Assembly: GCA_030220185.1 (NCBI GenBank) | Contig: JASPKZ010007424.1 | Span: 186,001-250,000 of the forward strand | Source of the DNA: Diploptera punctata | Lineage: Eukaryota; Arthropoda; Insecta; Blattodea; Blaberidae | DNA: 64,000 bases | Reading direction: 5' to 3' | Shown: piece by piece, positions 5,002 to 52,235 of the stretch | Layout: every line of letters begins with the position of its first letter | Position numbering within the stretch: position 1 is the stretch's first letter | The notes under the pieces: generated by a model | What the model saw: the letters and a program-made list of their open reading frames with translations, nothing else | Told to the model about the DNA's origin: nothing | Database searches by the model: none | Translations under genes and position numbers: made by a program

Positions 5002-5105
5002 CTTGTAGAGACCCCAAATGCTGAGCAGACAGTAGGAGGATAGGATGAGCCACCGGCATGCCCAAGGCAGGCAGAACACAGATGCGTACACCATGGGCAG
5101 CGCGC
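5002..5105 (-). CDS. PAQR4-like: PAQR4-like receptor family protein, internal exon (downstream of the 47 kb intron)
   Basis: A 104-nt exon read on the minus strand. It is preceded by a pyrimidine-rich acceptor ending GTGTGCAG and followed by the donor GTAATC. It starts in phase 1, completing the Gly codon split from the exon at 52017-52235, and encodes 34 residues beginning ALPMVYASVFCLPW and ending at the phase-0 donor. The join reads SFG-ALPMVY, which matches the TM3-TM4 region of PAQR4-type proteins (human PAQR4 has LGALPI at the same place). PAQR proteins are seven-helix membrane proteins related to adiponectin receptors. Later exons were not found below 5002 and are probably outside the window. 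Confidence 0.85.
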
Positions 5106-5847
5106 CTGCACACAACAGAACAAGCAACACACACGGTAAGCAAGCAACAACAACATTCAGAAGCTATGCCCCTCCCCGTAGATTATTTAATGTTCACTTA
5201 TAAGAAAATATTGTAAATAAAAACCTGAAAAAGTGTCAGATGTATTTTTGCTGATTTTCAATATACTTCTTTTTTCTCAATTCAACGAGTACTTAATTGT
5301 ACAATTAGTATTATACAGTTTGAATTATGTATGAGGAAATATGCTAATATTAAAAAAAATAAATTAAGAAAGAATTGACATATGTTTATAGGTATTGCAC
5401 AAAAATAGAATATTAATAAGGAAAGCTGTAGCTTGGGGGGGGTAGATTTCCCTACAAGCAGTCACCCAAGCATTGATGGAAAAACCATAACTATTGTGAG
5501 AAAATGCCTCAAGAACTGAGGATAAAAGTGGGACAACTCTTACAAATTCCATTAAGCAAGACTAGCAACCTACTGGGTGGTACTATTATTTTTCATAGAA
5601 ACGACTGTACCTTGGACCTGTATGGATTTAAAAGGTTGTTGAAATATACAGGTCATTGCCCTGAACTAAAAAGAAAAATAAGAAAAATTATAAAAACATA
5701 ATAGAATGGCAAACTTAAATACTTAAGCCATTGGGGCTTGTGTAAGTTGGATCTGGTGTTTTTTAAACAATGGATTTGTGTGATTAACAAAATGATAACA
5801 TAACTTGTTCTTATTACCTGTGAACAGAGATCATCGTGAAAAGTTTT
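5106..5847. other. Intronic DNA, nothing recognised
   Basis: AT-rich. A 65-codon frame at 5504-5701 has no recognisable family and I do not consider it a supported gene. Confidence 0.4.
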
Positions 5848-7015
5848 ACTGTAGACAGTGACGGAGCATGGAATTTCGACAAGTGTTAGCCCCCGTTTTA
5901 TGGATATAATATTGTGTAAACCGGTATTATATTATTTTTAATAAGTAAATGAACTTCTAAAAAGAATGACATGCAATATTAGGAGTATGAAATATAATAA
6001 ACTACTATAGATATAGGGTTTAGGAAATGGAAGGAGGTAATTGGACATATTAATAGTTAATTAATTATATAAATACATGATTTTAAAACTCAGATATTTG
6101 TCTCCACCACCAGCTAGTTTCTATGCTTATCCATATTAACTTAATTTTGACAGCCCGGCTTCGGGACTCTTCAATTCTAGTGTTTCCAAAATTATGTAGC
6201 GCTATGTCACAGTTAACATGGGTTTCAACTAGTTCATTACTTTTTCAGCGCATGAAAACTATTTACATCAGAAACTCCTTTTGTTGTCTAAACATTTTTC
6301 TCCGTTGAAAATAGAAGGTGGGGCTAACAGAGATCCTGACTTCCTGCAGCCATATGTCATGTTCATACCAACCTTCATGTTCTTCGTTAAATGACATACT
6401 TTTGTTTTTGTTTGACTTATAATGATATTTAAATTAGGAGTTGGTTTATAACTTTTTTCTTTTTTATAAAGCTTGTGCAGGAAAAGGGATGACTTAACAA
6501 GTCTTCAATACCTCAAGCACATTGCCCTCTCATGATAATATTTATTTAGTGGTTTAATTATTGTATTTGATATGCTCAGAAGTACTATGTTTACATAGGA
6601 TTTACTCGGAGCAACTGAAGCCTCGCTGTTAGCCGTTTCTAGAGTGCTAACAGGACAGCTACAGAGTAGCATTGGACTCAGCTTGAAATGCAGCAGGATG
6701 TACTACCAATGAGCTTGAATGTGCCTGCGCAACATACTCTCATAGTCATCTTCCATGTTAGCCTCGGGAAATCGGCTAACAGTGTGGGCATTTAAAACAT
6801 TGAAGCACATGATATTGTATTGGAATGCTACAATATATACGCAACGCATACAATATATTATTATTACAACATTTAGACTGCTATCAATGCATTGTTGTAT
6901 CTCATTCCAGCATTATATTTCGTTTTAATTAAATATAAAAGAATTTAATTATAACTTTTGAAAGTGTTAGCCGGGCTAACAACAGTAACATGGACGCTCT
7001 GTCACTGACTGCAGA
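5848..7015. mobile_element. Non-autonomous hAT-like DNA transposon with 8-bp target duplication
   Basis: The element proper is 5856-7007. Its left end CAGTGACGGAGC matches the inverted right end CAGTGACAGAGC at 11 of 12 positions, and homology continues inward with gaps to the GTTAGCCC block. Flanking octamers ACTGTAGA (5848-5855) and ACTGCAGA (7008-7015) are a hAT-sized target duplication with one mismatch. Internal GTTAGCC/GGCTAAC inverted motifs recur (5886, 6319, 6629, 6773 and a palindrome at 6967). No transposase frame is present. Confidence 0.8.
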
Positions 7016-7639
7016 CACACCAATAGATAGCAGTTTTATGTAAATTGAATTGTGATGCAAAGGCAGATCTCTATATTGCTTTAATGTTCATTGAGTGTTT
7101 ACTTATACTAATGGCAAGAGCCATTTTTAATGTCACATGTCTTTTCAGGTTCTGGGAACTTTTGGAGAGCTAGAGAGCTGATGGCTGCATTGCCAAATGC
7201 TCAGCATTAGTAAACAAACATATTGTGACACTATTGCCTCGATTTTTCTTCTAGGTTATTTAGGCATAATAAGCGCAATGAATTTATTTAAAACTTTCAC
7301 TAAACAATTATTTTAAAGTTTTACATTTATGTGACAAAGGGTAAAAATTAGATCTTTTAGAAATTGTAGAGATAAATAAATTGAAGAATAGCAATAGGCT
7401 GTTTAATTCACAAACTAGATTTAAATGAATCGGCTCTTTTAAATTTATAATAGAGATTATAAAAAATATATATTTGTTTACATTCAGTTGCATAGTTACA
7501 GTTGTTATGTACTGATATAATAACAAAATTAATTAATTTGTAATCATGTCTGAAGAAGGTACAAAGTACCAAAATGGTTTTTACAAATTTATATTGTAAT
7601 AAATATGAAAATCATATAAAACTTTAAGCTTTATTTTTA
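7016..7639. other. AT-rich intronic DNA, nothing recognised
   Basis: Between the hAT element and the LINE remnant. A short stretch at 7545-7630 trails the LINE and could be foreign or part of its broken end. Confidence 0.4.
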
Positions 7640-8150
7640 TTTAATTAAAGAAATATGGATTTCCTCAAGTAAATGCCAAATCAATTGATTATTTAAACTC
7701 TTCCATTGTAAATACGGAATCATTATGAAGATGTAGTAGTTCAGAATTACTAGTAAGATACTGTTCATGTATATTAAGATGTTTAGGTCTTGTGGAGTTT
7801 TTGCCAGACTTTTTTGCATAATAATCATTTAACATTTCTGCCTTTTCACTGTTCTCTGTGATAAGATTACCATTATCCTTTAAACAGGGAATCACATCAT
7901 ATCCTTTACCCTCTATGGCTTTGAGTCTTTTCCAAACAGTTGAGGAGGGAGTGTTTGAATTCAATGAGGAAACAAATTCCTGCGAGCTTGCTGATAAAAG
8001 ATTTCACCTGAAAATTGCTTTTGTTTTGTTATAATATATTTTAGATTCAATGGTTCTAATTTCATCCATTGTCTTCGGGCTTTATGTTTAGCTTTTCTGT
8101 CTTCTGTTAAGACATTGTTCCACCAGATATTCATTGGTTTCTTGGGTTGT
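7640..8150 (-). pseudogene. Jockey/I-like LINE ORF2 remnant, part downstream of the piggyBac insertion
   Basis: Minus-strand translation shows the linker between endonuclease and reverse transcriptase of a non-LTR retrotransposon: an NIWWNN motif, basic residues, then an open 91-codon stretch with SNTPSSTVWKRLKAIEGK and ending at TMEEFK. It stops where the RT domain should start, so the RT is lost. Frameshifts lie near 7980-8040. The upstream half continues in frame at 9743-9965 across the piggyBac-like insertion. Confidence 0.75.
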
Positions 8151-8618
8151 TTAACCCGTCAGCGTGGAGCGACGTGACGTGTACGCAAGTTGAATTCTTC
8201 ACCCAATGCGGAACGACGTGACATGTACGCTAGCTACACGCACTGCTTTAAACTGTAATTATGACCTTTGTGTTTACATTAACTATTTACCGTGTATACA
8301 AATTTTATGTAGAGACTTCAAAGTTTATATTAGCGCATATATTAACTGATTACGGCCCTCAGTAACAAGTTAAAATAATTTTATATTTGCATTTATTCTT
8401 GCGGCCTCTGACATTTTTCTTAAATTTATAACTTGATAAAGGATTTCTTATAAAACTAAATTAGCCTTTTTTTGTAGATTAGCTTGTCTATCAAATTGAA
8501 TTTATTTTCAAATCTCTTCATTTTTAATAATAATCTCGCAAAATTCAGTATATATAAAGGCCCAACAAAGTTATTTCCGATTTACGCTATAGTACAGGAC
8601 CACAACAGTAAATTTCAG

Positions 8619-8638
8619 ATATATATATATATATATAT
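8619..8638. repeat. (AT)n microsatellite
   Basis: Short AT run inside the piggyBac-like element. Confidence 0.85.
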
Positions 8639-8699
8639 TTCAAATGACGATATCCTTACATTATGGAAAGGTAGTTAGTCTACAATTCAGTCAGTATCT

Positions 8700-8975
8700 A
8701 AAAGGTAAAGTGGTCCACTACAGACCTTAGAAGGTTCTTGGGATATTAGGAGGTTAAGGCTCCCACTTTTCTAAACTATCGGTACTTGATGTAAGCCGAG
8801 TACTTATTTCTGTCTGACGGCCCATAACAAGCATCTGGTACTCATTTCAGTTAGAGGCTGAGTCAACCCCGGGTTCACGGTGCCGCCTGAAGGTTTGGTT
8901 CAGTTTAAAAATCCTGATCCACCGGGACTCAAACCCTCGATCTTCCGGCTTGTAGCATGTTGATCTTTTAAGTCC
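8700..8975 (-). repeat. tRNA-derived SINE, family A
   Basis: Reverse complement of the family A consensus. The GGTAAAGTGG tail lies at the left, the GTTAGAGGCTGAGTCAACCC body in the middle, and the inverted B-box GACTCAAACCCTCGA near the right end. It interrupts the piggyBac-like element. Confidence 0.85.
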
Positions 8976-9742
8976 ACACCTCCGGTGAGAAACTATTATA
9001 GTCATATTTCATCAACTGTTTTTCGGTTTTTGGAAACCAGAAGAAAGGCATTGAAATTTAGGGTTGATGAAGGTCTTAGTACAACAGGTCTGATGTGTAG
9101 AAAGACCATTTTTTGAAGGCACACGACCTAAAATAATGTTTCCAAAGTGTTGGAAAGACACATTTGGAGAAGGCTGCCCCCCCCCTGCAAGAAAGAAGGT
9201 CAGCGCATAGAAGCAATGTGTTTGTAATAAACATGAACAAAGTAAACACAAGGGGAAAAAAATACACTTATTGTTGCCCGAGTGTCAAACAGCTGGTTTA
9301 CATTTTGAAGATTTATCACACCAATTTTTGAAGTTCATACTTTTTTTTTTTCAAGACCCTTTTCTTTGTGTAAATATTTCGTTTTGTTGTTAGGTAAAGC
9401 CGGTTCTCTGAATTCTTCAAAGAATCCCTAGTGCAACACACTGTGTCACTTATGTGAGAAGTTTACAAAAAGGACCTATTTCAACTGTGGCACAACAACC
9501 ATAAATAAGTCTGCAAAAAACGCAGAGATGTTACGTGAGAACCGTAACAAATTTAATTAATTAAATATTATATTAAGGGTTCACCATAAACGAATTGCAA
9601 AAACATTTAAATTACTCAAGATATATCAATTTAAATGCGTTATTGGAATACTGGCACTGAGCGGCTGAGTTTAAATACCGGTGAACTCCTCCCGCATCAG
9701 AGTATTCTCGGCCATTTAAATCCATCCACTCTGAAGGGTTAA

Positions 9743-9965: not shown

Positions 9966-10012
9966 CTGTTTTACATTTATGTTTTCTGCTCATGATATAC
10001 ATGTTTTATGTA

Positions 10013-10128: not shown

Positions 10129-10129
10129 T

Positions 10130-11051: not shown

Positions 11052-11448
11052 GTACACAACATAATAATTGATGGATTAAAATTTCCTCTTGGATTCTATG
11101 TTATCAGTCAACAACTAAAAAAAAATTGATGACATTTTCTTGTAAAGTCATTATTTTTCCCCCTAGAGTCCCATGACTGACTGACTTTTCGTCCTCTCAT
11201 TTATATTGCTAATATGCATGGCACAATAAGTTGCTTGCTGCACTCCGCTGAAGATTAACATAAACATGGTTTAGAAAATCTGGTAGAGTGTTTGATTCAG
11301 CTGTTCTGTAAAAATAATTGCAGGTTCTACTTCTGTGTCAATTTGAACTAAAAGGCAGTTAGTGGAAGCATTTAAATATGTTCGGGTAAACGTTGCAGTA
11401 AATAAAGCATCCGTACTTGTTGATTTCTCAGAAAATTATGCCTACAAA

Positions 11449-11735
11449 GGGGCATGCCATAGCTTAGTGGTTAAGGTACTGCACTACAAACTGGAAGGTC
11501 AAGGGTTCGAGTCCTGGTGGGTCAGGATTTTTAAACTAACCCAATCCCTCTGGCGGCACTATGGCCCTGGGGTCGACTCAGCCTCTAAATGAAATGAGTA
11601 CCATATGCTTGTTCTGGGGTAAAGGCGGCCGTCATGCAGGGCTGACAACCTGGCTGACATCAAGTGCAGATTGTCCAGAAAAAGTGGGAGCCTTAACCTC
11701 CTACTACCCCAAGGGCCTCCCGAGGCCTGTAGTGG
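11449..11735 (+). repeat. tRNA-derived SINE, family A, inside duplicated segment
   Basis: The cleanest family A copy: A-box TAGCTTAGTGGTTAAGG, B-box GGTTCGAGTCC, the GTCAGGATTTTTAAACTAAC body and the CCTCCTACTACCCCAAGGGC end. It shares its insertion site with the SINE at 1148. Confidence 0.88.
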
Positions 11736-11847
11736 GATATCCAGGCAGTTCATTGGAACAATAAGCATATCTCAATATTAACTGCTATTGCTTAGTTTAG
11801 ATGGAAGGTGACAGAGAAGTACAGAAGAAATACTATGTTCTAGTGTT

Positions 11848-12108
11848 ATGTGGCACATGGCAGATAGTAGTAAAACTAAACAAATAATAGTTCATGAGGT
11901 GACACAAAATGAGGTAGAAGAAGAGAAGAGATTTTTAGAAAAGCGATTTCAACATCTTGCAGCTATCCCGGCAACTCATGGAGTTCACCATGTGAAAATG
12001 TTGAAGCCATATGTTATAGAATATGCTAAATTTCAAATGAACAATCAGTGCAAAAATTCACAAGTTTCAGGTGTGAAAGAAAATTATATTTTTATTAGCG
12101 GCATTTAA
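11848..12108 (+). pseudogene. Short frame inside the 2.5 kb repeat, copy 2
   Basis: Eighty-six codons, nearly the same as the frame at 1590 for its first 55 or so residues. After that a small indel shifts the frame into different C-terminal residues. Function unknown. Confidence 0.3.
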
Positions 12109-13594
12109 ATAATTCCTCGTTATGCGATTCTTCAATATGTATGTTATTAAGTGAGTCACTAGAGTATTGTGCTGTACCGCAATTAAAAACATGTGTGCGG
12201 GATTCTACTTGTTTGAAAATGGTGGATGCGTGTGGGTGATCGTGTACTTGAACTAGTTTGACCTTTCACATGCCATGTTTGTCGTATTATTTCGGGGATC
12301 CACAATCCTATATTGCCACTGTTCCTTGCATTTGACTTTGTGAAGCAGAGTCTTGCATGTTGATTGCAACAAATTTTAAATCATATGAAGTTACTTATAT
12401 AAAAAATACCATCAGCGTGGCGTATATGCGATTAAGTATATCCGGTAGTGTAAAGGAAAATTATTGTTGGGTATAGCATTATTTGGAAACCGACAGAGTA
12501 AAAATGCGCATTTCAATGCTGTAATATGTGTGCCAGCTTGGAACAGACACATCAGTCATAAAGTTAGATTTCGTGCATTGTAAGGGGATTTGTTTTAATT
12601 GTTTAGTTTAAAAATAACACTCATGCCAGCAATGTAATTTGTAATCAGTTGTTTTGAAAGAATTATAACAGCATTTTCCACATTTAAATAAAAATTTTAA
12701 TAATTTGTGTACTGTACTTTTTTGTTATATCTGTGTCTTCAAAGTTGGGATGTGTGAAAGTTAATTTTAGTGTTCTGGAACGAACACTGCAAATTCCATA
12801 TCGGTATATTTATTTATTTCAATGGTTCAATCTAATAACAGCATCAGATAAATTGTAATCAGTTAATATGGATGTAATAAAATTAGATGCATATTAGGTA
12901 TATTTAACTATAGAGAAGGCCCTTTGTTATTAAGAAGGTAATGTTTTCTTTATTTTGTGAAATTCAAAATGTTACATGGTAACCAAGTTAAATAAATTAC
13001 ACTATTTATTTAATCTTTTTACAGCATATCAAATTGTACATTTCCTATACATGATAAAATATGTGTAGTTCTTTATTCAGCTCCATATTATCGCTTTTTA
13101 TCTATTATAATTTCATGTTATTTTGTAATGTTTGTTAATATTTGCAGCTCTACAATATTAAATTCTTAATAAAATTCAGATATGTCAGTCAGTCACAGAA
13201 TGTAGTCAGTCAGTCACACATAACATATTAGGTTATAACTTCGGTCTTAATTGTGATTTTTGTTTGTTTTTATTGAGAATATAACTTGAAATGTGGCCCC
13301 CAAAAGGTATTTTGGAAAATTGAATTAGGAATTACACTTCAGAGAATGATGCAGATGAACATGTTAAGCTGCATGATGAGTTGACATTTATGTCAGTCAG
13401 TCACACATACTTTGATAGATAATAAATAACATTGTTTTTCTTCAGAAGTTGTATATTTTTGTACAGTCTTACACACTTTTCCTCTATCATATCACGTAGA
13501 TAACACCTCTAATTTCAATCAATTGTAATAGTTATGCAACCATTTTGCTAAAAAAGTGTATTGTAAATGTCAGTCACATATGGAATTGCTCTAT

Positions 13595-14079
13595 AATGAT
13601 AATGATGAGGTGGTAATAATCAGCTTTCATTATGAAAAAGAGCTGCCAATTATGACAAAGAGTAACGCGACTTTAATATATGTACTGGGTGTTAATGAAT
13701 TAAACCGCAATAATTTCTGAATTTTTAGACAAGCAATTTGAGTTAGGAAACATGTGGTCAGTTGGTTCAAATGTGAGAGATATTATATGAAATTTGTAAT
13801 GAACGAATCTGCCACTCATTAATGAAATCGATACCTCGTAATAAATGGTAAAATTTTGAAGCAAGTACGTAAAGTTCTTCCTGCCAGTGAATGAGAACCA
13901 CTGTATGTATTAGGTTCGAGTCATGTTACCTGCATTTTTTATTCATTAAAATTATCTGCAATAGTTATCTCTGCTATTTATTTTTCATAATCTAAGTAAT
14001 TATAATGAAATTACTCTTAAATGTAAAAAATAAGTCATTCATATTTATGAAATGCTTTACTATTTAAATACTATACTAT
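13595..14079. other. AT-rich intronic DNA; possible SINE B-box
   Basis: A lone B-box-like GGTTCGAGTCATG occurs at about 13913 without a convincing A-box. Nothing else recognised. Confidence 0.3.
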
Positions 14080-15052
14080 AGAATTTTGTACAGTGATCTG
14101 TACTGGGAAATAAAATGAATGTAAATTAAGATATTTAACTGTAACGATATAAGTTCTCCAAAGGCTTTTTAGAAAATAAAAAAAGAGTAAAAATTTATAA
14201 TAAATCATCCTGGACCAAAACCATGTCACTACACACCAGGATGTAATTTCATATCAACGTGTATTGACAGAAAGACCAAAGATGTCCACATTAGATAAAG
14301 TCGGGAAATTGAGCTGCATAAGTGAAAGTGAAACATAGGTAAAAGTTTTTGAAAACGACAATAAGAAACCCCACATTTATGAAATGGAAAGTTAAGTGAA
14401 CTTTCCACCCGAGATTTCCCCGCGAATTAGAATTTTAGAAGGGAAAAAACAATCAATTAAATACTCGCGATGTTTTAAACGAAATGGAGTCTGGAGGCAG
14501 GGACTGAAGTGTTCACTTCAGTTTCCCTTCGGACCGGTGAATCCTCTACATGTGTGAGTATGGGCTTTTAATATCTTGGTGGATCATTTTAACTTCAAAA
14601 CTAAACGGTTCTATGAACCATTAAAACCTTTAGATTAATTTGGTTTACTGTGAATAACATGCATTGGCAAATAAGACCTAAGGGTCGAATTAAAATGTAA
14701 AAGTTTAAATTAATAATCTACAGTTGACTTAATTGAACTCTCTCATACATTCATACACATATTAAAGTTTTAAATCAATCTCGGCGCGATTCAATATGGT
14801 GACTTTAGCTTTCATGCTCAAGATATTTATATACTTTTTCTTGATTGTGTTTTATGTAATGTTGACTTTTATAATAAAGTGTTTTGTTTTATAGTTTTAA
14901 ATGTTTCTATGTACAATGTGATGCTCCCGCTAATTGCGATTATAGCACGCTTTTCCGCCTCGACCGAAGGCCAACCGCTAGGGCCAATGTCAATTAAAAA
15001 TATTGACTCTTTTTACGCTACTTTATGACCTATGATAATCTAGGTTATAACA
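14080..15052 (+). mobile_element. Old LTR of the tRNA-Leu-primed LTR family
   Basis: Aligns along its length with the LTRs at 19684, 24794, 33413 and 35739. Shared blocks are TCCTGGACCAAAACCATGTCAC, the GGCGCGATTCAATATGG block, the conserved GGCCAACCGCTAGGGCCAA motif and a TTTTACGCTAC near the end. It ends GTTATAACA at 15052. The 5' end is degraded, so 14080 is approximate. No partner LTR or internal region is adjacent. Confidence 0.75.
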
Positions 15053-23561: not shown

Positions 23562-23661
23562 ATATGTTATGATAAGAAAAATAAATGCCTGGACGGGATT
23601 CGAACTCAGAGATCCGGGTTCGAATCCCGTCCAGGCATTTATTTTTCTTATCATAACATAT
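23562..23661. repeat. Perfect palindrome, 44-bp arms, built from SINE sequence
   Basis: The left arm 23562-23605 is the exact reverse complement of the right arm 23618-23661, with a 12-nt loop. Each arm contains the tRNA B-box GGTTCGAATCCC and the SINE trailer CCAGGCATTTATTTTTCTT, as in family C at 55095. A TA microsatellite follows the right arm (23658-23682). Confidence 0.95.
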
Positions 23662-24383: not shown

Positions 24384-24782
24384 TTACTTACTTACTTACT
24401 CACTGGCACTATCGAACCCGTATGTTCATGGCCGCACGGACATAAGCTCTCCATACATCCCTATCCTGAGCTAATGCTTTCCAATTGAGCCTTTGGCATG
24501 GGTTCCCTGAAGTAGTCCCCGCCCGGAGAACCAAATGGGGGACTATTTGACCTCCGGAAAATTTTACCCCAGTTGAACCCATGTCCGCATTTCTTGACGG
24601 TTCTATTTTTACGGTGAAAGATCGTCACTCTTTCGACCAAGGTACTTTTTTCGTCTGGCTTATCACCTTCGACAAGTCCGGCATGGGTAACCCTATCGGC
24701 AGCAATGCTACCGCCGGCATAGCTCTCAGGATCATTTAAGCACGCAAGCCACTCCACCACGACAAGGTAAAGAAACCATGGA
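24384..24782 (-). mobile_element. 399-bp internal-deletion derivative of the RTE LINE
   Basis: On the minus strand it starts at the same CCATGG end as the full-length RTE (29533) and follows its 5' region to GCCAAAGGCTCAA. It then jumps directly to TTGGAAAGCATTAG, the last 80 bp of the RTE 3' end, and finishes with the same GTAA tandem tail. About 2.85 kb are missing, with at most 1 bp of microhomology at the junction. The 5' part is less damaged than in the nested full-length copy, giving an open 110-codon frame (24793-24461 on the minus strand). It keeps both ends needed for reverse transcription in trans. Confidence 0.88.
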
Positions 24783-24793
24783 GCGGAATGCAT

Positions 24794-29368: not shown

Positions 29369-29532
29369 CTACTTCTCGACTGGTCACTAGCCCTTACTGA
29401 CATGGAACGAGGCCTGCAGGTTAAGAAAGCCTAGGCGCCTTTAGATTCTCCTAATCTTTCCCAGCTCGTCAATTTCAGCAAAACCCACTGCCTGTAGAGT
29501 GTATTATTTGTTGTGTAATACTCAGTAATCCC

Positions 29533-32500
29533 TCCATGGTATCTTTACCTTGTCGTGGTGGAGTGGCTTGCGTGCTTAAATGATCCTGAGAGCTATGCCG
29601 GCGGTAGCATTGCTGCCGATAGGGTTACCCATGCCTGACTGGTCGAAGATGATAAGCCAGACAAAAAAGTACCTTGGGCGAAATAGTGACGATCTTTCAC
29701 CGTAAAAATACAACCGTCAAGAAATGCGGACATGGGTTCAACTGGGGTAAAATTTTCCGGAGGTCAAATAGTCCCCCATTCGGTTCTCCGGGCGGGGACT
29801 ACTTCAGGGAACCCATGCCAAAGGCTCAAACACAGGGACGTGTTCCTAGGAACATGGAATGTTAGGACTTTATACAATAGCGGGGCAATTAACGCGGGAA
29901 TTTGATAAATCGCCCTTGGATATAGTCGCTTTACAGGAAGTTAGGTGGCCAGGAGAAGGTAGTCAGGAATCAGGAAGCTTTGCATTATACTACGGGGGTG
30001 CAGAAAGACCTGCATTCGGAACGGGTTTTTTAGACAGAAGGAGGATCCTATCCGCTATCCGAGATATTAAGTCTGTTAGTCATAGGGTATCATACATAAT
30101 TCTAAAGGGTAAACAACATGATTTTATAATGGTAAATGTACATGCCCCCACAGAAGATTAAGATGACAAGATCAAGGATGAATTCTATGAAGAATTGGAA
30201 TGCTTATTTGATAGCCTTTCACGATATCATATGAAAATTATCTTAGGAGATTTTAATGCAAAAGTGGGGCGGGAAGATATATTCAAACCTACAATAGGCA
30301 AATTCAGTCTTCATGAAGACAGTAACGACAATGGGGTTAGATTAGTCACATTTGCCACATCAAAGAATCTCATTGTTAAGAGCACAGCATTTCAGCATAA
30401 GGATATTCATAAATACACCTGGACGTCCCCAGATGGAGAAACTCGGAACCAGATAGATCATGTATTAGTGGATAAACGCTGGCACAGTAGCATCATCGAT
30501 GTTAGATCAGTTAGAGGGACAGACTGCAATTCGGATCATCTGGTCAGAGTGAAAATCAGACAACGGCTATCGCTTATGAGAGGAACAAACGCTAAAGATG
30601 ATTCTGTAAAATTTGAATTAAAAAACTTGAAAAATGATGAAATGCGGCAAGAATACCAAATCAAAATTGCTAATAGATTTTAAGTACTGGAATCTTCAGA
30701 TGACAATGTGGCAAATGAAGAAGAAACTGATATAAATAAAGAATGGGAGGCTATAAGAGATACTATTAAATTGTCAGCATCAGAAAGCATTGGTTGTTTA
30801 AAAAAGAGGCAAAACAAGAAATGGTTTGATGAGGAATGTGCCGACATTGTAAAGAAAAGAAAGCTAGCAAAAATGAAATGGTTACACGAGCCAAATGAGG
30901 TAAATTTAGAGCAATTGGGTAGTATTAGACGGGAAACCACCAAGTTACTAAAGAGTAAAAAGAGGGAATATTTGAGAGAGAAGATTAATGATCTTGAAAT
31001 GAATGCAAAAAATAGGAACATTAGAGAATTATATCAGGGAATTAGTATAGAGAAGAAAGGGGTTCAGGCTAGAACAAACATAATTCGGAATGAAAATGGG
31101 GATATTATTGCAGATTCCAGGAGTATATTAAATAGATGGAAAAGTTACTTTAATCAGCTATTAAATGTACATACAGAACAGGACATTGAGGAGGATAATT
31201 TACAGACAGCAGAAATGCTAGTCGCAGAACCAAGTGCATTAGAGGTTGAAATGGCGATTGAAAAATTGAAGATGTATAAAGCATCAGGTTCAGATGAGAT
31301 CCCAGCAGAACTGATAAAATCAGGGGGAGAAAAATTGATGGACAAGATACGTTGGTTGCTTAGTATGATTTGGGAAAAAGAAGCTCTTCCAGATGAATGG
31401 AAGGAATCAATTATCGTACCAATTTATAAGAAAGGAGATAAAACTGATTGCAACAACTACAGGGGCATCTCATTACTTTCAACTTCGTACAAAATTCTAA
31501 CAAATATATTAGTAAGCAGAATTACTCCCTATATTGATGACATTCTAGGAGATCATCAATGTGCATTTAGAAGAAACAGGTCTACAACAGATCAGATTTT
31601 TAGTATAAGACAGATTTTAGAAAAGAAATGGGAATATAATGGTACTGTACATCAACTATATGTAGACTTCAAAAAAGCATATGATTCAATTAAGAGGGAG
31701 AAGTTATATAGTATCCTGCTGGAGTTCGGAATTCCTAAAAAGTTAGTTAGACTTATACGAATGTCTCTAAATGGCACAAAGAGTAGGGTGCGTGTAGGCA
31801 AACAGTTTTCGGACACTTTTGAAATCCAGAATGGATTGAAGTAAGGAGATGCACTATCTCCTCTACTATTTAATTTTGTACTAGAGCATGCCATTAAATC
31901 TTTGGAGAATGAGGAAGGCTTACAACTGAATGGTATTAATAAGCTGTTAGTTTATGCTGATGATGTAGTATTGTTGGCCGATAGCGAGGAGATACTAAAG
32001 GACAATTCGCACACACTGTTGAGTAACACTAAGAAATTAGGACTGGAAGTAAATATCAATAAAACTAAATATATGGTCACATGTAGAAATTCATTATATA
32101 ATGGAAATGGACAGCTAATGACAAATGAGGGAAATTTTGAGGAAGTGGCTGAATTCAAATACCTAGGAACAATAATCACAAATAGGAATGAGATGCACAA
32201 AGAAATTAAACATAGGCTCAATTCTGGAAATGCGTGCTATTATGCATTGCAGAGACTCTTGATGTCCCAACTCCTTTCAAAAAACGTTAAACTGAAAATA
32301 TATAAAACTATTATTCTACCAGTTATATTATATGGGTGCGAAACATGGACTCTTACTTTAAGGGAGGAAAGGAGATTACAAGTATTTGAGAATAAAGTAC
32401 TTAGGAAAATTTTTGGACCAAAGAGAGATGAACAGACAGGTGAATGGAGAAGACTACATAACAATGAACTACATGGTCTTTATAGGAAGCCAGATATAAT

Positions 32501-32807
32501 AAGAACAGTTAAGTCTCGTAGACTGCAATGGGCAGGACATGTTGCCCGTATGGGGAATGGAAGACTTGCATGGAAGCTTCTTGTAGGAAAGCCAGAGGGG
32601 AAACGACCAGTTGGTAGACCAAGAATGAGATGGGAGAATAACATTAACTATGATTTGAGGGAAGTAGATTATACAGGGAATGATTGGAAAGCATTAGTTC
32701 AGGATAGAGATGTATGGAGAGCTTATGTCCGCGCGGCAATGAACCTACGGGTTCGATAGTGCCAGTGAGTAAGTAAGTAAGTAAGTAATTAAGTAAGTAA
32801 GTAAGTT
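29533..32807 (+). mobile_element. Full-length RTE-type LINE nested in the LTR element
   Basis: About 3.3 kb, the usual size for RTE elements. The 5' end coincides with that of the deletion derivative at 24782, which argues that the copy is not 5' truncated. The 5' region has a short open frame (29674-29865) overlapping the start of ORF2, as in other RTE elements with a small first ORF. It ends in GTAA tandem repeats (32763-32807) rather than poly(A), typical of RTE. It interrupts the internal region of the LTR element and is therefore younger. Confidence 0.9.
29859..32759 (+). pseudogene. RTE ORF2: AP-like endonuclease plus reverse transcriptase, three stops
   Basis: One frame of 967 codons with three in-frame TAA codons (30159, 30681 and 31842) and a one-base insertion near 29884 that separates it from the true N-terminal GTWNVRTLYNSGA. 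Endonuclease motifs: IVALQEVRW, GDFNAKVG, NQIDHVLVD and SDHLVRV. RT motifs: YVDFKKAYDS (A), NGLK-stop-GDALSP (B, where a Gln is usual) and VYADDVVLL (C). The tail has LQWAGHVARM and RPVGRPRMRWEN. The endonuclease would nick target DNA and the RT copy the element RNA at the nick. The damage is light, so the insertion is probably recent. Confidence 0.92.
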
Positions 32808-40429: not shown

Positions 40430-41650
40430 AATAAATTAGTAAATGGATATAAAATTTATGCTAATATAGTTAAGAATAAATTGAAAAAAAATTATGAAAA
40501 TATAATTGGAGAAGAGCAGAATGGATTCAGAAAGGGTAGATCTTGTACAGATGGATTCTTCACTCTAAAACTCCTATTAGAAAAGCACTAGGAATTCAAT
40601 ATAAAAACTCATATTGCCTTCGTTGACTTCTTAAAGGCTTTTGACAAAGTAGACAGAAATATATTACTACAAATTTTAGCTGATGATAACGTTCCACAAC
40701 AATATATTACTAATATCTTCAACATCTATAAAGATAATGAAATCTCTGTTAAACAAGATGGCAAATTATCTTCTTGGGAAACGATCAACACTGGAGTAAA
40801 ACAGGGATGTGGACTTTCACCAGTGCTTTTCATTATATATATATATATGAATAAATTAATAAACAAATGGAGGAAAACACAACGAGGATATATACACATC
40901 AATAGGAACCTCAAACTCGATGCTATTCTTTTTGCAGATGATTTAGCTCTTCTGGCACTTTCTGAAAATGATTTGCAATGATCAATCTATAATTTACAAA
41001 AAATAGGTGCCAAATTTAATATGGAAATATCAATTAACAAAACTGAAATTATGACATTTCATGGGAAGGACCCCATACAAAGTAAAATCTGTCTCCAGAA
41101 TAAAATTTTAGAGAGATCTAATCAATTTAAATATCTTGGATATTATCTCTCTATCTGGGATGAAAAGGATATCCCTGAAAAAATTACTAGTTATAATAAA
41201 AGTTTGGGAATTATTAATCAAGTTATGAAACCATTCCTTGTACAAAAAACACCAGATTACGTTTATATAACACTTTGGCTAGACCAGTGTTGACCTATGG
41301 TAGTGAAGCATGGACACTAAAAAGACAACATGAAAGCAGAATAACGGCTTGTGAAATGAGATTCATGTGCAGAACAGCGGGTTACACCAGATGGGATCGG
41401 AAAAGGAACACCGATATCTTATAAGAATTGAAGACTACGCCAATTTTGGAATATATTAAACAGTATCAACTAAATTGGAAACACCATCTAGAAAGAATGA
41501 GTTCAAATCGGATCCCCAAAGCTGTTTATAATTATATACCAAGAGGACGAAGATCACTGGGCCGTCCTATGAAACGCTGGAGGGAAAATTTTCAATAGGA
41601 TTGTAACAGGCCTTGGCCTAATACTTAGAAGGAAGAATAAGAAGAAGAAT
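40430..41650 (+). pseudogene. LINE reverse transcriptase remnant, 5' truncated
   Basis: Begins inside the RT domain (GYKIYANIVKNKL, EEQNGFRKGRSCTDG), then AFVDFLKAFDKVDRN (motif A), TGVKQGCGLSPVLF (motif B), ILFADDLALL (motif C, FADD), INKTEIMTF and a LNWKHHLERM ... RGRRSLGRPMKRW tail. Stops at about 40589 and 40981 and frameshifts near 40850 and 41280 break it. A TA run interrupts the frame at 40839-40848. Non-LTR clade not settled. Confidence 0.8.
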
Positions 41651-41787: not shown

Positions 41788-42534
41788 CAAGTATGTCATG
41801 AATTTATATTGAGAACTAAGGAAAACACCCATCGGAAAGAAGTGCGCTTCGACCGAAGAAGGAACGAAAGATCAAAACATGATGATAGACACGGAGATGA
41901 TAGTAAAATCCAACGCCCAGAAAAGTCAAACTTAACTCACTCACGACTTACAGACACAGAACTAGAGAGAAAAATAATACACAAAATAAGCCAGCAGATG
42001 CAAAGTATGATGCAAAACATCACAACCAGCAACAATAAGATGATAAAGGAACAAAGACAAGAAGGGGAAAACACAGCTTGCAGCAGCAACTCGCATCCTT
42101 TGACACACGTCACCACAGGAAAGGAGATCGATGGAGACGTAACACAAGGAATAATTGAAAATGAATATAACCATGAAAACCAGGAGAGCTGGACTGAAGT
42201 TTGAAGAAGACACAGAGGCAATACGCGCATCACGGGGACCGGAGAGAACAGGGAGAACACACTTAGAGCAGCAGACCGGACAGCGTGGCTATACATAGGC
42301 CGCCTCCACCAGACAACCGAGTGTGAGGACCTGATAAATTATATGAATGCTAACGGCATGAATGGGGCGATAGAATGTGAAAAATTGGAGGTAATCGGCC
42401 GTAACAGGGCATTCAGAGTAGGAATCCCCTTTGACTTACAAGACCAGGCAAAACAACCACAAATATGGCTGAAGGGAGTTATCGTGAGGCAGTATATTTT
42501 TCGGAGACAACAAAGGCAAGGGATACGACTATAA
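41788..42534 (+). pseudogene. LINE ORF1 (nucleic-acid-binding protein), one stop
   Basis: One frame with a TGA at 42202-42204. The first half is basic, then Gln/Asn-rich and helical. The second half (AAWLYIGRLHQT-like through YMNANGMNGAIECEKLEV to WLKGVIVRQYIFRRQQ) matches the C-terminal region seen in ORF1 of I/R1/Jockey-type LINEs. It has no good ATG at its start, so the element is probably 5' truncated near 41800. ORF2 follows about 110 nt downstream. Confidence 0.7.
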
Positions 42535-42644
42535 CAAACAATCATGTAACGGAAATCCAAAATCAGCAACAACAATAAAGACCCCTGCAAACTTAAGGAA
42601 TGTAATAAACGCGGTACCGTGCCCCGGATAACACGTTACGAACG

Positions 42645-45600
42645 GTGAACAACAACAATAACGCGAATGACCACGTCAAAATAATGCAATGGAACGTGGA
42701 AGGACTGAACTCCGTATTAACCGCGATGCCCATAATTACATTTCAAGAAAATGATATACTATTTTTCTCAGAAACTTTCTGCATGGAAGACACAGAAATA
42801 TCCAACTTTTATGGAATTCACTCCCCAGCCAAAAAATGAGACAAAGGTCGTCCCTCAGGGGGACTAAGCTGCTTTGTAAAATCGCATATACAACCCCTCA
42901 ACGGTATCATCTGTACCGAGAACACATTAACGATATCCACCAGAATAGTAAACAAAATTGGTGCATACTTCGCGCCCAACACTGAACCCGAGAGCATCAT
43001 ATATGACCTAGGAAGGGCTCTGGAGAACATAGACGACGGTAAACCAACCATTCTAATGGGAGACCTCAACTGTCGCATAGATAAGTGGAACACAAAAACC
43101 CAAGCGGTAATAGACTTCCTCCTAGACTACAGACTGCGACTCCTAAACCGAGAACAGGAATTTACCTATATAGCTCCAAACGGGAGTAGTACAATCGACC
43201 TGGTCTTCACAGATAGCCAGGGACAAGCCCAAGTCAAAGTAGTATGCAATTAGAAAACACCTACCAGTAATAACTAAACTCCAGCTGAGTCACCTAAGAC
43301 AGCCAAGACCAAACTGCAACCATAGAACAAAAATATCACGACACATCGACGAGGAAAAATGGCAAGCAAGCAAAGCAGAAATACCGGCAATAATAAGTAT
43401 GATGAGACAGGGAAACCTAGACGGAGCAACAGCAGCCTTGACCGAGAACATCGCATAGGCCACCAATAAGGTAACCAGGGCCACACGCACGGCGAAGCCA
43501 TGGTTCGACGAGGAATGTTATTTATCAAGACAAAGAACTCTACAGCTCCTCCACGAAGTCAGAAAACCTGAAAACATCGCACTAACGGACTACACAGAAC
43601 AACGCCGGGAGTACAAACGCCTACTAAAAGAAAAGAAGACAGCCTATGATCTACACCTAGAACAAATCCTAATCGCCGAAACAGAAATTAAGCCATATAA
43701 TATATTAAGGACTTCCAAGAAACGTCACCCAACTCCTTTCGTGAATCTGGAGCAATGGGAAACCCACTTCAGAAACCTACTAGGAGAGAAGGGCGAAACA
43801 GCAGTTGATCCAGCACCGCACATGCATAATACAAGAACGCAACTCGACGACCCAATCACTCCTGACGATGTAGCCCGGTCCATAAGCAATACTAAAAACA
43901 ACAAGGATGCCGGTCCGGATGGGATATTCGCAGAACACCTGAAAACCTTGTCTCAAGATCTGGCAGTGTCGCTAGCCCTCCTATACAACGAATGCCTTAC
44001 GAACAGCACAATCCCACAACAATGGAGAAAGACAATAATAGTGGTACTCCACAAAGGCAAAGGCAGGAAAGACGACCCAAATAGTTACAGGGGAATCGCT
44101 TTGGAGAACATAATGTTCAAACTATTCTCCAAAATCATACTAGAGCGCATCGAGCTAAGATTACGAGCAAACATCCCCACGAATCAATTAGGATTCACTC
44201 CAGGCAGATCGACTTTACATGCAGTACAAGAAATCCTAGTTGATATAGAAAATAGCATGGCACAACCAAACACCCCCCCCCTGTATGTAATATTCATAGA
44301 CTATTCAAAAGCATTTGACAGCATTAACAGAAAGTTACTTTGCCACAAGCTGGAGAACGCACTGGGCAGGTCAAGTCGCGAACTGGAGACAATAAAATCG
44401 ATTCTCAGCACCAACTATGTAGCAATCTACGATGGCATATCAATGTCAAAACAAATTGCTCAAACACGAGAAGTCCTCTTTAACATTATGACGGCCGATA
44501 TTGGGCAAACTATAAACGCAAGAAATATAGATCTATTAATGTATGCCGATGACATGGCCATCCTTTCCAAGAGTCCTGAAGATCTGCAGGAGGCCATGAA
44601 GTGAACCGAAAGTGCCTTTCTGCGGTTCAGTATGGTATCTTTGTTCTCCTCCCTACTACAGAACATTTATGAAATATGCCAATGTCCTGTGTTCCTTGTG
44701 CCTACCCCTCCTCTTTTTCATCCATTCTCCCGCGCATCTCTACGGCGCATATCCCCTCTACTTGCGAACCTTTATATACATTGTACTCTTACCGAACATT
44801 ATCATTCGATCAGCCTAGCAACCGGCGTTTGGTTATTTAAAGACGGATTCAAAGATGGAATCCAGTTCTAGCTCACCATGCGACTGGAAGGTTAATATGG
44901 TGGTCTATATAGACAAGTTGATTGAGGCCGAGAAGAAGTCTGTTTTGAGTTAGTCCAGCAATGTACGGAAGAAGTGATTCCTAAAGCTTGGACACGAGTG
45001 TGAGTGTGGTATTATGTATGGTATGTTATTTATTCAGTTATTTTTACAGCTATGCTTGGTCGTTTGATCAAGAATCATCTTTTGTTATTAATTTATTGTT
45101 TTATTTAAAACCAACTTGTTTATATTAAAAGGTTATCTTTTTAAACAACGCCCCTCTGTTATTATTCAAGTCTAAGTAGTTGTTCACTCTCCTATACAAA
45201 AATCACTCACTGTATGCTTTTAATAATCTGTATCTATATATGTATATATGTTCATCTGGGAAAGAAAGATGAATTAATAGCTGCCTTTCATGGGCCCGAG
45301 GCAAGCTGCTTTCTTACAGATAACTTCTTTGAATATCAGGACCACATTAATAAATACAGTAAATTACAAAGCCCGATCCCGGACAAGTGTTACGCTGAGC
45401 GTGGTTTGCTTTTCTAAACCCACAAATGGTAGCAGTAGCGTAGTGTGATTCACTTACTTACCTACAAATGGTAGCAGTCAGCGTGGTTTTCAAAACTTAC
45501 TTACCTACAGACGAATATCAGAAAATGGGCGTCAGAAAATTCAATGGAAATAAATAGCTCCAAAACAAAAGCAATGAAGTTCAGAAGAGGAGGGAGATTA

Positions 45601-46314
45601 TCAAAAAATGACCACTTTATGTGCGGCTACTCAGCCCTAGAAATAGTTCCCAACTTTAGGTACCTGGGAGTGACGCTGCAGACCACTGGAACCACGTTCA
45701 CCATGCATATACAAGACAGGACCACAGTGGCAATAAATTCGATGTTCGACATCCCCAAGCTTGAGAGACTGTCCCTGCCAACGGCGATGGCACTGTTCCA
45801 ACTCAAGGTAGCACCAGCGGCCACATACGGTATTCAGATAATTTGGATTCACCTAACAGCGAAAAACCTCAAGAAATTGGAGAATGTCAAAGCCAGATAT
45901 CTCAAGAGGGCCTTGTCACTCTCAAAGTACACAAGAAACAGCTACGCCTACAGAATAGCACATGAACCCTACTTCATTGAGGACATCAAGCTACGCTTCA
46001 ATCTACCAGAAACCCAGGCATATAAAGACGCCATCAAAGAGAGACAAAACAAAGCCAATGCAATACCGATGGAAATAATGGACACAGAAACGATGAAAAC
46101 TGATGTGTGGAAAGGACCGAACTTCCAATTTCGCCACCTATACACACGCTTCGCCGCGCATGGTTTCCACGGGAAAATATGTCAGAATCCGTCATACCAC
46201 AACCCCAAGGAGGACTGCAGATGTAAGCTTTGCGACGATCCATGCTCCAAGTACCACCTAATGAAATGCAAAAGCAGAACTCAGCCTCTCACCAAAATTA
46301 CAAAAGACTGGTGA
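42645..46314 (+). pseudogene. LINE ORF2: endonuclease, RT and CCHC tail, interrupted by an 891-nt insertion
   Basis: Endonuclease: KIMQWNVEGLNS, GDLNCRIDKWN and GSSTIDLVFTD. There is a TGA at 42837, a one-base frameshift near 43250, a TAG near 43457 and a TGA at 44602. RT: KDAGPDGIF, NSYRGIAL, FIDYSKAFDS (A) and LLMYADDMAIL (C). Motif B is damaged: TREVLFNIM lacks the usual QGDPxSP. After the insertion the frame resumes at KWASENSMEINSSKTKAM and ends with CRCKLCDDPC...HLMKC, a CCHC knuckle. R1/Jockey-like by these features. Confidence 0.85.
44632..45522. mobile_element. 891-nt insertion in the LINE, possibly a degraded LTR element
   Basis: The LINE frame is continuous if these 891 nt (297 codons long, but not coding) are removed. 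The insert holds TATA-rich and T-rich sequence. Near its right end are two copies of AAATGGTAGCAG (TGGTAGCAG at 45427 and 45469), which match the start of an initiator-Met-tRNA primer site. This suggests an LTR followed by primer sites. A 55-residue frame ending PIPDKCYAERGLLF (about 45250-45417) is unrecognised. No clear TG...CA ends or target duplication were found. Confidence 0.6.
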
Positions 46315-48060: not shown

Positions 48061-48063
48061 TTC

Positions 48064-48242: not shown

Positions 48243-48616
48243 TTTCTTTGGTCATTTTAATACTTAGAATCAAATACGGGACCAAATGGTCCGAGTAACT
48301 TAGAATATGAAACAAAATTGAATATTTTAAAATAATGGATATCTAACTATTAGCATTTTAGTAACAGAATATTTTTTGACGTTTGACAATGTGGCGATTA
48401 CAGCTGACTTAAATAACAGTTTTTTTGAGTTGATTTCTTTATGTTTGGTATTTATTTTAATAAATAATGTTATTTTTCGTTTACTGTGTTTTTAATATGT
48501 TAATTGTAGAACATTTCCTCCAAAATCAAGGCCAACCGCTCGGGCCACAGTCAACTTAAACAATAGGGAACTACCCTACCAATACGCAGGGGCTTAACGG
48601 ACGCGCGCGCGTAACA
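48243..48616 (+). mobile_element. Partial LTR (3'), 5' truncated
   Basis: Direct repeat of 47670-48060, from TTCTTTGGTCATTTTAATAC to CGCGCGCGTAACA. It lacks the left half of the LTR, so the internal deletion ran into the 3' LTR. Confidence 0.85.
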
Positions 48617-49454
48617 TGGACCAAGTTCCTAGATATTCACTGATTATATTCCAAGACATTTTATGATAAATTGGCCTTTTTACTCAACCCCTTTGATTAG
48701 GTGATAGATTGTAAATCTTTTAAGGAGATAAAACTCTTCTACTAGAAAAGTTCTATATTGAAAAATGATAACAGATTGCAATTCTGTAGGAGTAGCAAGC
48801 TACTAACGCAGTTATAACAAAATTGAGTGGCAGTTGGGCGGAATTTCGAAAATATAATATTTTATTATATTTTCGAAAAAGAAACGAACCCCTAGCACCA
48901 AAACTAACTTCTCTAAATTAAAAATCTCAGAAATAAACATCACATTAGTATTAATTACCAATTAACAATTCTATCTATTTTTTTTCATCTACTTAAATAG
49001 GTGATTGATTGACAACCTATGACAAGAGAGAGGTCAGGAAATTGACTGTAAGTTATTAAATTAATTAACATTTTTTTTCGAGCATTTGCTTAATATAAGG
49101 AAATATCGTGTTTAACAGTATTGTTAACATTTGTGTTTATTTTATTTTATTCCACAAGAATAGTCTAGTATAATTGTGTTTGATGATATTTTATTTATTT
49201 ACAGGAAATTTTTATCTTGTGTCTATTTAAGTGAAGGGAATATTTATTTTATAAATAACATATATGTGTAATTCATAGATTTGTCAAGTAGAAGTTTGAA
49301 AAATGGCTTAAAAAATCGAAAATTTTGCACAAGTACAATAAGTTATTATATAACTATATATATATATATATATATATATAACTTATTAATTTAGAAAAAG
49401 CAGTATTTATTAATGTATTACTCCACAATTGTAACGTGATTGCTTCTGTTCCAG
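48617..49454. other. AT-rich DNA with a family leader block and a 35-bp palindrome
   Basis: About 48880-48900 repeats the CGAACCCCTAGCACCAAAAC leader of the LTR family, so this may be internal sequence of a further, lost copy. Palindrome arms 48844-48859 and 48863-48878 (TTTCGAAAATATAATA) are perfect with a 3-nt spacer. A TA microsatellite lies at 49357-49379. Confidence 0.6.
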
Positions 49455-50378
49455 TGGGCCATTCAATTCAAATGAGTGAAGCCTATAGTAATATGGACCG
49501 TTTGTTAACTGCCGTGAAATATGAAAATCACAACTGGAAGATATGTGGGGACTTAAAGGTATATTTTTGAGCTTAATACACTGTATGCTTAATGTTTTAA
49601 TTTTGTAAGTAAGTTATACCATACACGGATACAAATTCATACTATTTGTTACAGGTTCTGCCATACTGCTGGGTCTACAAGGTGGCTACACTAAATATCC
49701 ATGCTTCCTATGCCTGTGGGACAGTCGAGCAGATGAGAAGTGCTACGTGCAACACATCTGGGAAGCAAGACCTCCCCTGACACCAGGTTCGCACAACGTG
49801 AAGTCACAAGCTCTTGTGGATCCTCAGAAAATTCTCCTCCCACCGCTGCACATTAACCTTGGCTCGATGAGATCCTTTATAAAGGCAGTGAACAAAGAAA
49901 GTAGGGCTTCTACTTTCTTAAAACATAAATTTCCACTTATCAGTGAGGCCAAACTTATTGCAGGTATTTTTTATGGTCCTCAGATCAGGGAGCTTATGAA
50001 AGATTCACAATTCGATGAGAGTATGGAGGATAAAGAGAAATATGTCAGGTTAGCATTAAAAGCAATAATAAAACACTTTCTTGGCAACTATAGGAGCCCA
50101 GAGTATGAAACTGCTATCAAGGAACTTCTGCAAAACTTCCAGCTTTTTGGTGCTCGTATGTCAATAAAGATGCACTCTCTTAGCTCACATTTAGATTGTT
50201 TCCCTGACAACTGTGGAGATTATAGTGAGAAGCAGGGTGAACATTTTCATAGAGATGTTAGAGTAATGGAGGAGAGGTACCAGGGTTGCTTGCAGACTAT
50301 TGTTGGTGCCTCAAGAGAGACATTCCAGAAGCAAAACATGTACAAAAGTCCTTGAATAGAGCTTTTCTTCCATATTAA
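49455..50378 (+). pseudogene. Spliced gene fragment of an unnamed arthropod family, two frameshifts
   Basis: Exon 49455-49558 (acceptor TTCTGTTCCAG upstream) encodes GHSIQMSEAYSNMDRLL ... WKICGDLK. A 96-nt GT-AG intron (49559-49654) follows, then exon 49655-50378. A one-base loss after 49657 shifts the frame. Then LLGLQGGYTKYPCFLCLWDSR, ILLPPLHINLGSM, FYGPQIRELMKD, HSLSSHLDCFPDN and KQGEHFHRDVRVMEERYQG are readable in one frame to 50280. A small deletion shifts into LADYCWCLKRDIPEAKH, ending at TAA 50376-50378. I recall this family as repeatedly found, uncharacterised, in arthropod genomes. A transposon origin is possible, and function is unknown. The intron rules out a simple mRNA retrocopy. 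Confidence 0.65.
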
Positions 50379-50789
50379 TGATGTTAATAGTGTTAGTGTA
50401 TGACATATTATACATAATTTAGACGTTATCCACATGTAAGAATGTTTTAAAACCACAAACAACATATATTGTATTTTATAAAAATTCTTAAATGTCATAT
50501 TTTAAAAAGTGAAATAGCAATAAAACCTGACCTGACGCAACAAAATGAGTTACTTATCTGATTTCAACGTGCACTAAATATTAAAAATCAGCTTAAAAAA
50601 CTTTGACCTAAAAAATGACGCAGACCAGTGTAATAAAGGCTGCATAGATTGTACGCCCATTTAGAACAAACTCCCAGCAGACACACAACAGTACATTTTT
50701 CATGCATGGGACAACCTAACAGTATTATATTTAATGACGCTCTTTAACAGCTCAGGTCAATTACGCAATTCAAAGCTGCATTTGAAAAT
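50379..50789. other. AT-rich intronic DNA, nothing recognised
   Basis: No coding frame or structured repeat seen. Confidence 0.4.
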
Positions 50790-50965
50790 ACTGACAATTA
50801 TTCTTCAGATGTCTTTTACGTGCATTAAAACTATGACACGGAACCAAAATCTAACTTCCTTTCAAAAGAAAGACATTCACAGGACTTTTATGCACATGAT
50901 TTGAACCAGCAAACCTTGGATCAAGAGGCAAGCATGATAAGCACTGGACTCTTTGTAATTGAAGA
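50790..50965 (-). repeat. tRNA-derived SINE, family E
   Basis: On the minus strand: TCTTGATCCAAGGTTTGCTGG with B-box GGTTCAAATC, then a CTTTCTTTTGAAAGGAAG hairpin and GGTTCCGTGTCATAG body. Related to 16195-16270. Confidence 0.6.
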
Positions 50966-51474
50966 CCATAGTGCTTTGTCCATATCACAACATTTTTCAA
51001 GAGAGCAAATTCGAAGTTTGACTTTAGTACTTTCTTTCTTTGTATTGTCACATGACCAGTTTAAACTACAAACAATCCTACATCACATAACATGCATAAG
51101 TCATTTCTAGAAAAATTCCATCACACAGAAGCTGCGTAAACTAAGCAAATTCCTCAGCAAATTAAAGTTATGGTCTGATTTGATGGTTTGTTATATCTCT
51201 CTTTTATTAATTCTTAAATTGGAGAAACTCAATTTCTTATGGCAACTTATTTTAATGTGTAGTGAAAACAAACCAACCATAACCATAAGTTAGCTTATTA
51301 CCTGTTGCATCTTATTGTATGTGTTGAAATAATTTATACTGATTCATTTCCATTACTTTTAAAAGTATTAAATTAATAAAACTCGTGTATAAGATACATT
51401 ACCAATTTAAGGTTAATTGAATTGTAGTGTATACAGATACATTGCAATGAAGAAACATGATGGCTGTTAGAGCG

Positions 51475-51690
51475 ATTCTTTTTTAAATGTTGGGTTTCAG
51501 CTAAACCTCCACTTCTAATTATCGGATTTTCTCATTTTATTCCAAGAGCATGTTTGTCTATTGAGTATGATTGTAAAAAAAAAAAGTAGGGAATTGTTGC
51601 TGCTAGAATGATTTTTTTTAATTTACGTTTCACATGAACTCCTACTTTTAATGGTCTGATTTTGCTGTTTACTTTTCTAATTGATTCCTA
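51475..51690. repeat. Interspersed repeat fragment related to 62650-63300
   Basis: Shares the GCTAAACCTCCACTTCTAATT and CACATGAACTCCTAC-type blocks with the Helitron-like repeat near the right edge of the window. Confidence 0.5.
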
Positions 51691-52016
51691 TATTCCAAGT
51701 TTGGTTCTGAATAAAAAGAAAGAAAAAATTGTGAACTCTAGAGGGTTAAGATATATATTTTTGCCATGATCATTTTGGTATCTACTAGATACGATCGGTG
51801 AAGATCTGGAATTTTTTTTATAGCTTTATTTCTTCGGAATAAAAGTGTGAAGACATCATGTTTTTTCTTTAATCTTCAGTGTCAGTGAGTGTCATTTTAA
51901 AATACAATTTATAGACATTGAAAGTGTTTTGTAACATTCAACATGAACATATATTGAATGAAAGGACACAAAGAAAGAAAAAATATATATATTGCATGCT
52001 TTTTATGTGTTTTTAC

Positions 52017-52235
52017 CAAAGCTCTGACTGATCCATATTCCAAGCATGTCCAGCTGCAGCAGCTTGTAGTAGACAACCTCCCCACGCTCCAGGTTCATGA
52101 ACAGGTGGTAAACAAAACTGCCAATCCACGGACTGACAGCACCCACAATGTGGCACCATGGTAGAAATCTTGATTCAATATGATCCCAGGGCATTAAACC
52201 CGGTACTGTCACCAGTATGTACACTATCGGAATTC
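52017..52235 (-). CDS. PAQR4-like: PAQR4-like receptor family protein, internal exon (upstream of the 47 kb intron)
   Basis: A 219-nt exon on the minus strand with acceptor TTGTTGTTTTACAG and donor GTAAAAACA, phase 1 at both ends. It encodes 73 residues from IPIVYILVTVPGLMPW through a second hydrophobic segment to SQSFG. The PAQR signature is visible: a Ser-x3-His in SFVYHLFMN (metal-site His of helix 2) and the Asp of LQLDMLGI in helix 3. The order and spacing match human PAQR4 (SVLYHLFMC, LALDMCG). Members act in membranes of the secretory pathway and several have ceramidase-like activity; activity of this protein is inference. The preceding exon, expected to end near NIYTHG, was not found between 52236 and 64000. 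Confidence 0.88.

Follow-up and report, generated by a model that had tools for sequence, protein, structure and literature searches.

Two PAQR4-like exons of the cockroach Diploptera punctata, apparently joined across a 46.9-kb repeat-rich intron

The DNA analysed here (hereinafter, the window) is a stretch of 64,000 nucleotides of the genome of the blaberid cockroach Diploptera punctata (assembly GCA_030220185.1, contig JASPKZ010007424.1, positions 186,001 to 250,000). Its minus strand carries two PAQR4-like exons, denoted A and B, which are, with a probability of about 0.93, adjoining exons of one gene that meet at an old phase-1 site and are separated by a single, repeat-rich intron of 46.9 kb subject to ordinary GT-AG splicing. 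This reading draws on the borders and phases of the exons, their homology and contiguity, and the repeat content of the DNA between them. Under this reading, the intron, which contains many retrotransposons along with further repeats, would be removed in vivo by the ordinary GT-AG route, with the contiguous frames of relatives as indirect support.

Exon A occupies positions 52235-52017 (minus strand), between an AG acceptor at 52237-52236 and a GT donor at 52016-52015; it is 219 nucleotides long, is both entered and left in phase 1, and holds 72 full codons with a split glycine codon at each end. Exon B, 104 nucleotides long, lies at 5105-5002 of the same strand, between an AG acceptor at 5107-5106 and a GT donor at 5001-5000, and is entered in phase 1 and left in phase 0. 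When joined, the exons yield 323 nucleotides that are read as 107 open codons, with a glycine codon split at the junction (phase 1) and stops in both other joined frames. The interval between the exons (5106-52016, minus strand) has the GT donor, the AG acceptor and the phase-compatible ends of a GT-AG spliceosomal intron. The initial annotation, which was made from the sequence alone, had the exon coordinates, splice sites and phase-1 ends right to the base, as judged by the AG and GT borders, and the single intron of 46.9 kb that it proposed measures 46,911 bp, without N. Its description of the window as essentially that intron holds in the sense that the intron takes up 46,911 of the 64,000 bases (73%). 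An assembly break, which it had named as an observation that would speak against the join, is not present in the form of a gap, with 0 N across the entire window.

The family assignment comes from homology. The joined sequence matches PF03006 (HlyIII) over residues 18-105, that is, across the junction (E 1.8e-4, 21.7 bits), and neither exon A alone nor exon B alone has a PF03006 match in Pfam. In a protein search, all 43 candidates proved to be relatives of the joined 107 residues. The comparison with PAQR proteins that the initial annotation proposed as a check came out in its favor: proteins named PAQR member 4 are found among the 43 relatives, namely, those of Anopheles melas (P0031) and Trichogramma pretiosum (P0035), both so named by the source, along with a relative from Lucilia cuprina (P0022) that bears a PAQR name, incomplete as printed. 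These three proteins are 62-73% identical to the query over 65-71% of its length, which corresponds to the part encoded by exon A. Membership in the PAQR4 family is, then, indicated by named insect PAQR member 4 proteins among the relatives combined with a PF03006 match below the cut-off. No sequence relative was found among solved structures. The literature on PAQR4, among the matches listed, consists mainly of human cancer studies.

The relatives also bear on whether the two exons are contiguous. Among the 43 homologs, 39 extend as far as the end of exon A, and four of these 39 (P0001, P0002, P0006 and P0007) continue straight into ALPMV, the beginning of the part encoded by exon B. The alignments of P0002 (71% over 107 residues) and P0007 (66% over 95 residues) with the query are ungapped at the junction; the crossing in P0006 was followed by eye only. 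The contiguous PAQR coding sequence claimed for the two exons is upheld by these proteins, which cross the junction, and by the open joined frame of 107 codons. Another 31 of the 39 homologs have, after the glycine, K (18), E (8), M (2), or R, T or N (1 each), as expected of read-through into a phase-1 GT donor, and among the other four, three (P0022, P0031 and P0035) diverge in other ways, whereas the fourth, P0033, stops at the glycine. On the acceptor side, homology in P0040-P0043 (4 of the 43) starts at exon B, with 91-94% identity, and a similar preceding stretch in each of these sequences reads through the acceptor. Thus, the boundary after SFG appears to be common to the majority of the 39 homologs extending that far, and the position of the A-B intron looks old and shared because of the donor-like read-through in 31 of 39 sequences and the acceptor read-through in P0040-P0043. 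Both P0002 and P0006 continue with VSV after LYK, which fits a GTAAGTGT donor, and because of this fit, these two look like genomic frames that lack the A-B intron. With respect to the intron, P0002, P0006 and P0007 differ from Diploptera punctata in that they seem to have none at this site, so that it was apparently lost, or never gained, in some insects.

The join is already present in the deposited data. P0001 is the hypothetical protein L9F63_021285, partial, of Diploptera punctata itself, and it is 100% identical to the joined sequence over all 107 residues; hence the deposited model already makes the A-B join. Compared with the joined exons, the model has 39 additional N-terminal residues, of which 29 can be placed within or next to a retrotransposon at 53.0-53.5 kb (minus strand): residues 2-14 at 53535-53497 (92% identity, E 2.5e-4), residues 23-31 at 53108-53082 (100%, E 0.009) and residues 27-38 at 53043-53008 (83%, E 0.009). 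The first of these pieces lies opposite the frame 53270-53656, which has no Pfam family, is retrotransposon-like by eye and adjoins an RNase H match (PF00075, 53560-53961, plus strand) outside the intron; the other pieces lie beside this frame. By eye, the extra residues bear no likeness to the N-terminal parts of the PAQR4 proteins P0031 and P0035, and the extension is probably a false start of the model. The model is partial, probably owing to a distant true first exon. The case exemplifies an annotation hazard, with a model that finds the 47-kb junction and yet seems to begin with residues from in or beside a retrotransposon.

When P0002 and P0007 were compared with the translated window by tblastn, exon A and exon B were recovered with 118 and 53.5 bits, respectively, for P0002, and with 101 and 52.8 bits for P0007, the 101-bit alignment extending beyond exon A into the intron. 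In 50 control windows of the same composition generated by a first-order Markov model, the best chance scores were 25.0 bits (P0002) and 26.6 bits (P0007). The seven-helix core of PAQR proteins carries conserved motifs, LHNE...TH in the N-terminal part and HQ..H in the C-terminal part, and a PAQR4 coding region spans about 270 codons. Exons with these motifs were not found within the window and presumably lie outside it. The N-terminal pieces of P0031 and P0035 reached at best 18.9 and 17.3 bits against the window, below the respective control maxima of 24.6 and 23.5 bits, and neither motif scans nor a comparison with a human protein revealed anything further in the window that reads as PAQR4. 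As the remaining PAQR4 exons did not turn up there, the gene probably extends past the window on both sides and so covers more than 64 kb. An extra exon between A and B, which the initial annotation had listed among the findings that would count against a single intron, did not emerge either, in that homology searches of the intron yielded no convincing PAQR exon.

The content of the intron was examined by self-comparison and by Pfam scans that covered 20 of the 34 frames of at least 100 amino acids in the window and 30 of the 115 frames of 62-99 amino acids that overlap the region ~5,000-52,300. In the frames scanned, the transposon domains inside the intron belong to the long interspersed nuclear element (LINE) order only and occur in three places (29532-32784, 40592-40981 and 42840-44604). 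The first is a near full-length LINE on the plus strand, with the ends set by self-comparison, in which the endonuclease and the reverse transcriptase share one frame broken by three stops; of the four consecutive same-frame reading frames, two match PF00078 and one matches PF03372 above the cut-off, with PF14529 just below. The second LINE (plus strand) was drawn by hand to the outer limits 41788-46314, with Pfam support, for endonuclease and reverse transcriptase, only in 42840-44604; the stretches 41788-42204 and 45475-46314, assigned to it by eye, have no Pfam family. The third element is a LINE fragment at 40592-41421 (plus strand), in which PF00078 is matched (E 1.2e-14) only in 40592-40981 and the remainder was recognized by eye, without a Pfam match for 40982-41293 and 41218-41421. 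An internally deleted copy of the 29532-32784 LINE is located at 24384-24783 on the minus strand, with the 5' 299 bases fused to the 3' 102 bases; a spliced LINE was considered and dropped, given that the borders of the deletion are not GT/AG (the 5' part ends in CTCAA and the 3' part begins with TTGG), which leaves a plain internal deletion. Self-comparison also shows that LINE 3' ends recur at several places and reveals a family of ~1-kb repeats with five copies, which start at 14151, 19681, 24791, 33410 and 35757.

A longer repeat, of 2.5 kb, is found at 11052-13597 (plus strand), and its other copy, at 754-3306, lies beyond exon B, on the opposite side. The two copies are 87.8% alike, which brought up a 10-kb segmental duplication around exon B; however, exon B is single, and in self-comparison the 7.7 kb separating the copies is not duplicated over any long stretch, so that this candidate was rejected in favor of a dispersed repeat or a short duplication. 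The tRNA-type box B motif, used as a search pattern with at most one mismatch, occurs seven times in the window, compared with 0.23 expected. Because four of these matches (1183, 8701, 11474 and 57803) fall in the copies of one repeat, this repeat is likely a short interspersed nuclear element (SINE); a box-A-like pattern is not above chance (six occurrences, 5.75 expected), and both boxes are present in two copies. At 23562-23661, there is a near-perfect palindrome of 100 bp (94%) that includes a tRNA box-B-like sequence. No Rfam family at the gathering score and no tRNA was found in the window. A frame of 248 amino acids at 49609-50355 (plus strand), which encodes a repeat-like protein widespread in animals, contains no Pfam domain but has 511 related proteins at E <= 1e-3, and among the best 120 of the 511, the named ones include proteins from crustaceans, a moth, a fly, a hagfish and a sponge; this frame probably encodes a mobile-element protein. 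Four weak, sub-cut-off matches to non-transposon families (PF18215, PF13789, PF12435 and PF07729) were taken as chance. Outside the intron, a DDE_3 transposase is matched by Pfam at 60609-61229. At 59343-59736, three copies of a unit of ~150 bp are arranged head to tail; over a span of 98 bases, the similarity to the first copy is 72-87%.

The initial annotation credited the intron with at least five transposon orders. This figure was not confirmed: LINEs are identified by domain and SINE candidates by box B only, in a comparison that covers part of the reading frames and cannot register noncoding elements, which carry no domain. The same annotation also suggested that the intron grew by nested insertion, and two places do suggest such events. 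In the second LINE, the reverse transcriptase match (PF00078) ends at profile position 171 of 205, at the frame end 44604, and the protein, followed by eye, resumes at ~45,480, after an apparent interruption of ~0.87 kb; no shared word of at least 7 bases was found at the borders of this interruption. The other place is the SINE-like stretch in the 2.5-kb repeat, which was probably present before the repeat was copied because it is located at about the same place in both copies. The intron may plausibly have grown in this nested manner, but only these two suggestive cases were seen, and they fall short of proof of the share of nested growth in the intron. Transposon insertion in general would have made most of the intron length.

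Several observations weigh against the proposed structure of adjoining exons and a single repeat-rich intron. The PF03006 match, with 21.7 bits, falls short of the curated cut-off (26.2 bits), the sequence being a fragment; the exon A donor, GTAAAA, is not the best consensus; P0016 and P0018, counted above among the homologs with K, read GKLPII after SFG, possibly a changed ALPII; and P0001 is a partial predicted model, the 5' end of which is probably false. As to the repeat content, the hand-drawn repeat intervals account for 20,533 of the 46,911 bp of the intron (44%), a value that includes stretches recognized by eye (e.g. 7640-8158 and 49382-50501) as well as unclassified repeat families, and more than half of the intron has no repeat assignment. 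Finally, a misjoin of the assembly through a repeat is possible, and a gapless sequence alone does not guard against it. If such an error occurred, the exons would still be genuine and would adjoin each other in the mRNA, but the interval would be inflated or scrambled and the true intron length would differ. Repeat pairs are usual sites of misjoins, and the interval contains such pairs, some of which are 93-97% alike and reach up to 98% in 300-base blocks; however, the long pairs differ by 3-12% over their whole lengths and so are separable by long reads, the window contains no N, and the deposited model joins the same exons, although possibly from the same assembly. On balance, a length distorted in this manner is very unlikely.

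A different challenge is an additional, alternative or micro-exon inside the interval, in which case some transcripts would have at least two introns in place of the single one. Homology search misses exons that are very short or lineage-specific, and one segment, 40173-40060 on the minus strand, matches the exon A part of P0002 with 25.4 bits, just above the control maximum; nothing else in the intron lends itself to interpretation as an additional PAQR-like trace. The match is probably due to chance because it is only 27.5% identical, contains an internal stop and scores lower with P0007 (20.8 bits, below the control maximum) and with the window's own protein (19.6 bits). Moreover, the proteins of the relatives need no residues between SFG and ALPMV, and an exon hidden in the interval appears highly improbable. 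The possibility that exons A and B belong to two tandem duplicates of PAQR4, with the partner exons lost or hidden, and are not spliced together, is close to negligible: each exon has a single strong match in the 64 kb, the phases are compatible, strand and order are right, continuous frames of relatives cross the junction without a gap, and the deposited model joins the two.

A LINE-bearing intron of 47 kb is ordinary for a genome of cockroach size, probably in the upper tail of the length distribution. Excerpts of published genome analyses give a median intron of 3 kb, with ~60% repeats, in Periplaneta americana (PMC5861062), mean introns of 12.77-14.97 kb in two mantises (PMC10415354), and expanded LINEs with low content of long terminal repeat elements in Blattodea (PMC12774602). 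Because of the cockroach and mantis values in these excerpts, an upper-tail intron of 47 kb is unsurprising. The case resembles, so far as the excerpts describe them, the introns lengthened by transposons in insects with large genomes (cockroaches, mantises, locust), with the same long introns in repeat-rich genomes, and compared with those, nothing is distinctive here beyond the probable upper-tail length. A literature search on the Diploptera punctata genome, introns and transposable elements returned nothing on the subject, judged by titles.

It is quite improbable that the length of the intron itself matters, for example through delayed or restricted PAQR4 expression or through transposon sequence that enters alternative transcripts. 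If such an effect were real, it would concern a coding region of ~270 codons spread over more than 64 kb, with an intron that is apparently absent in some other insects. In any case, the locus offers a clean, checkable example of an apparently old intron position that extends over tens of kilobases in a cockroach and is apparently missing in some other insects.

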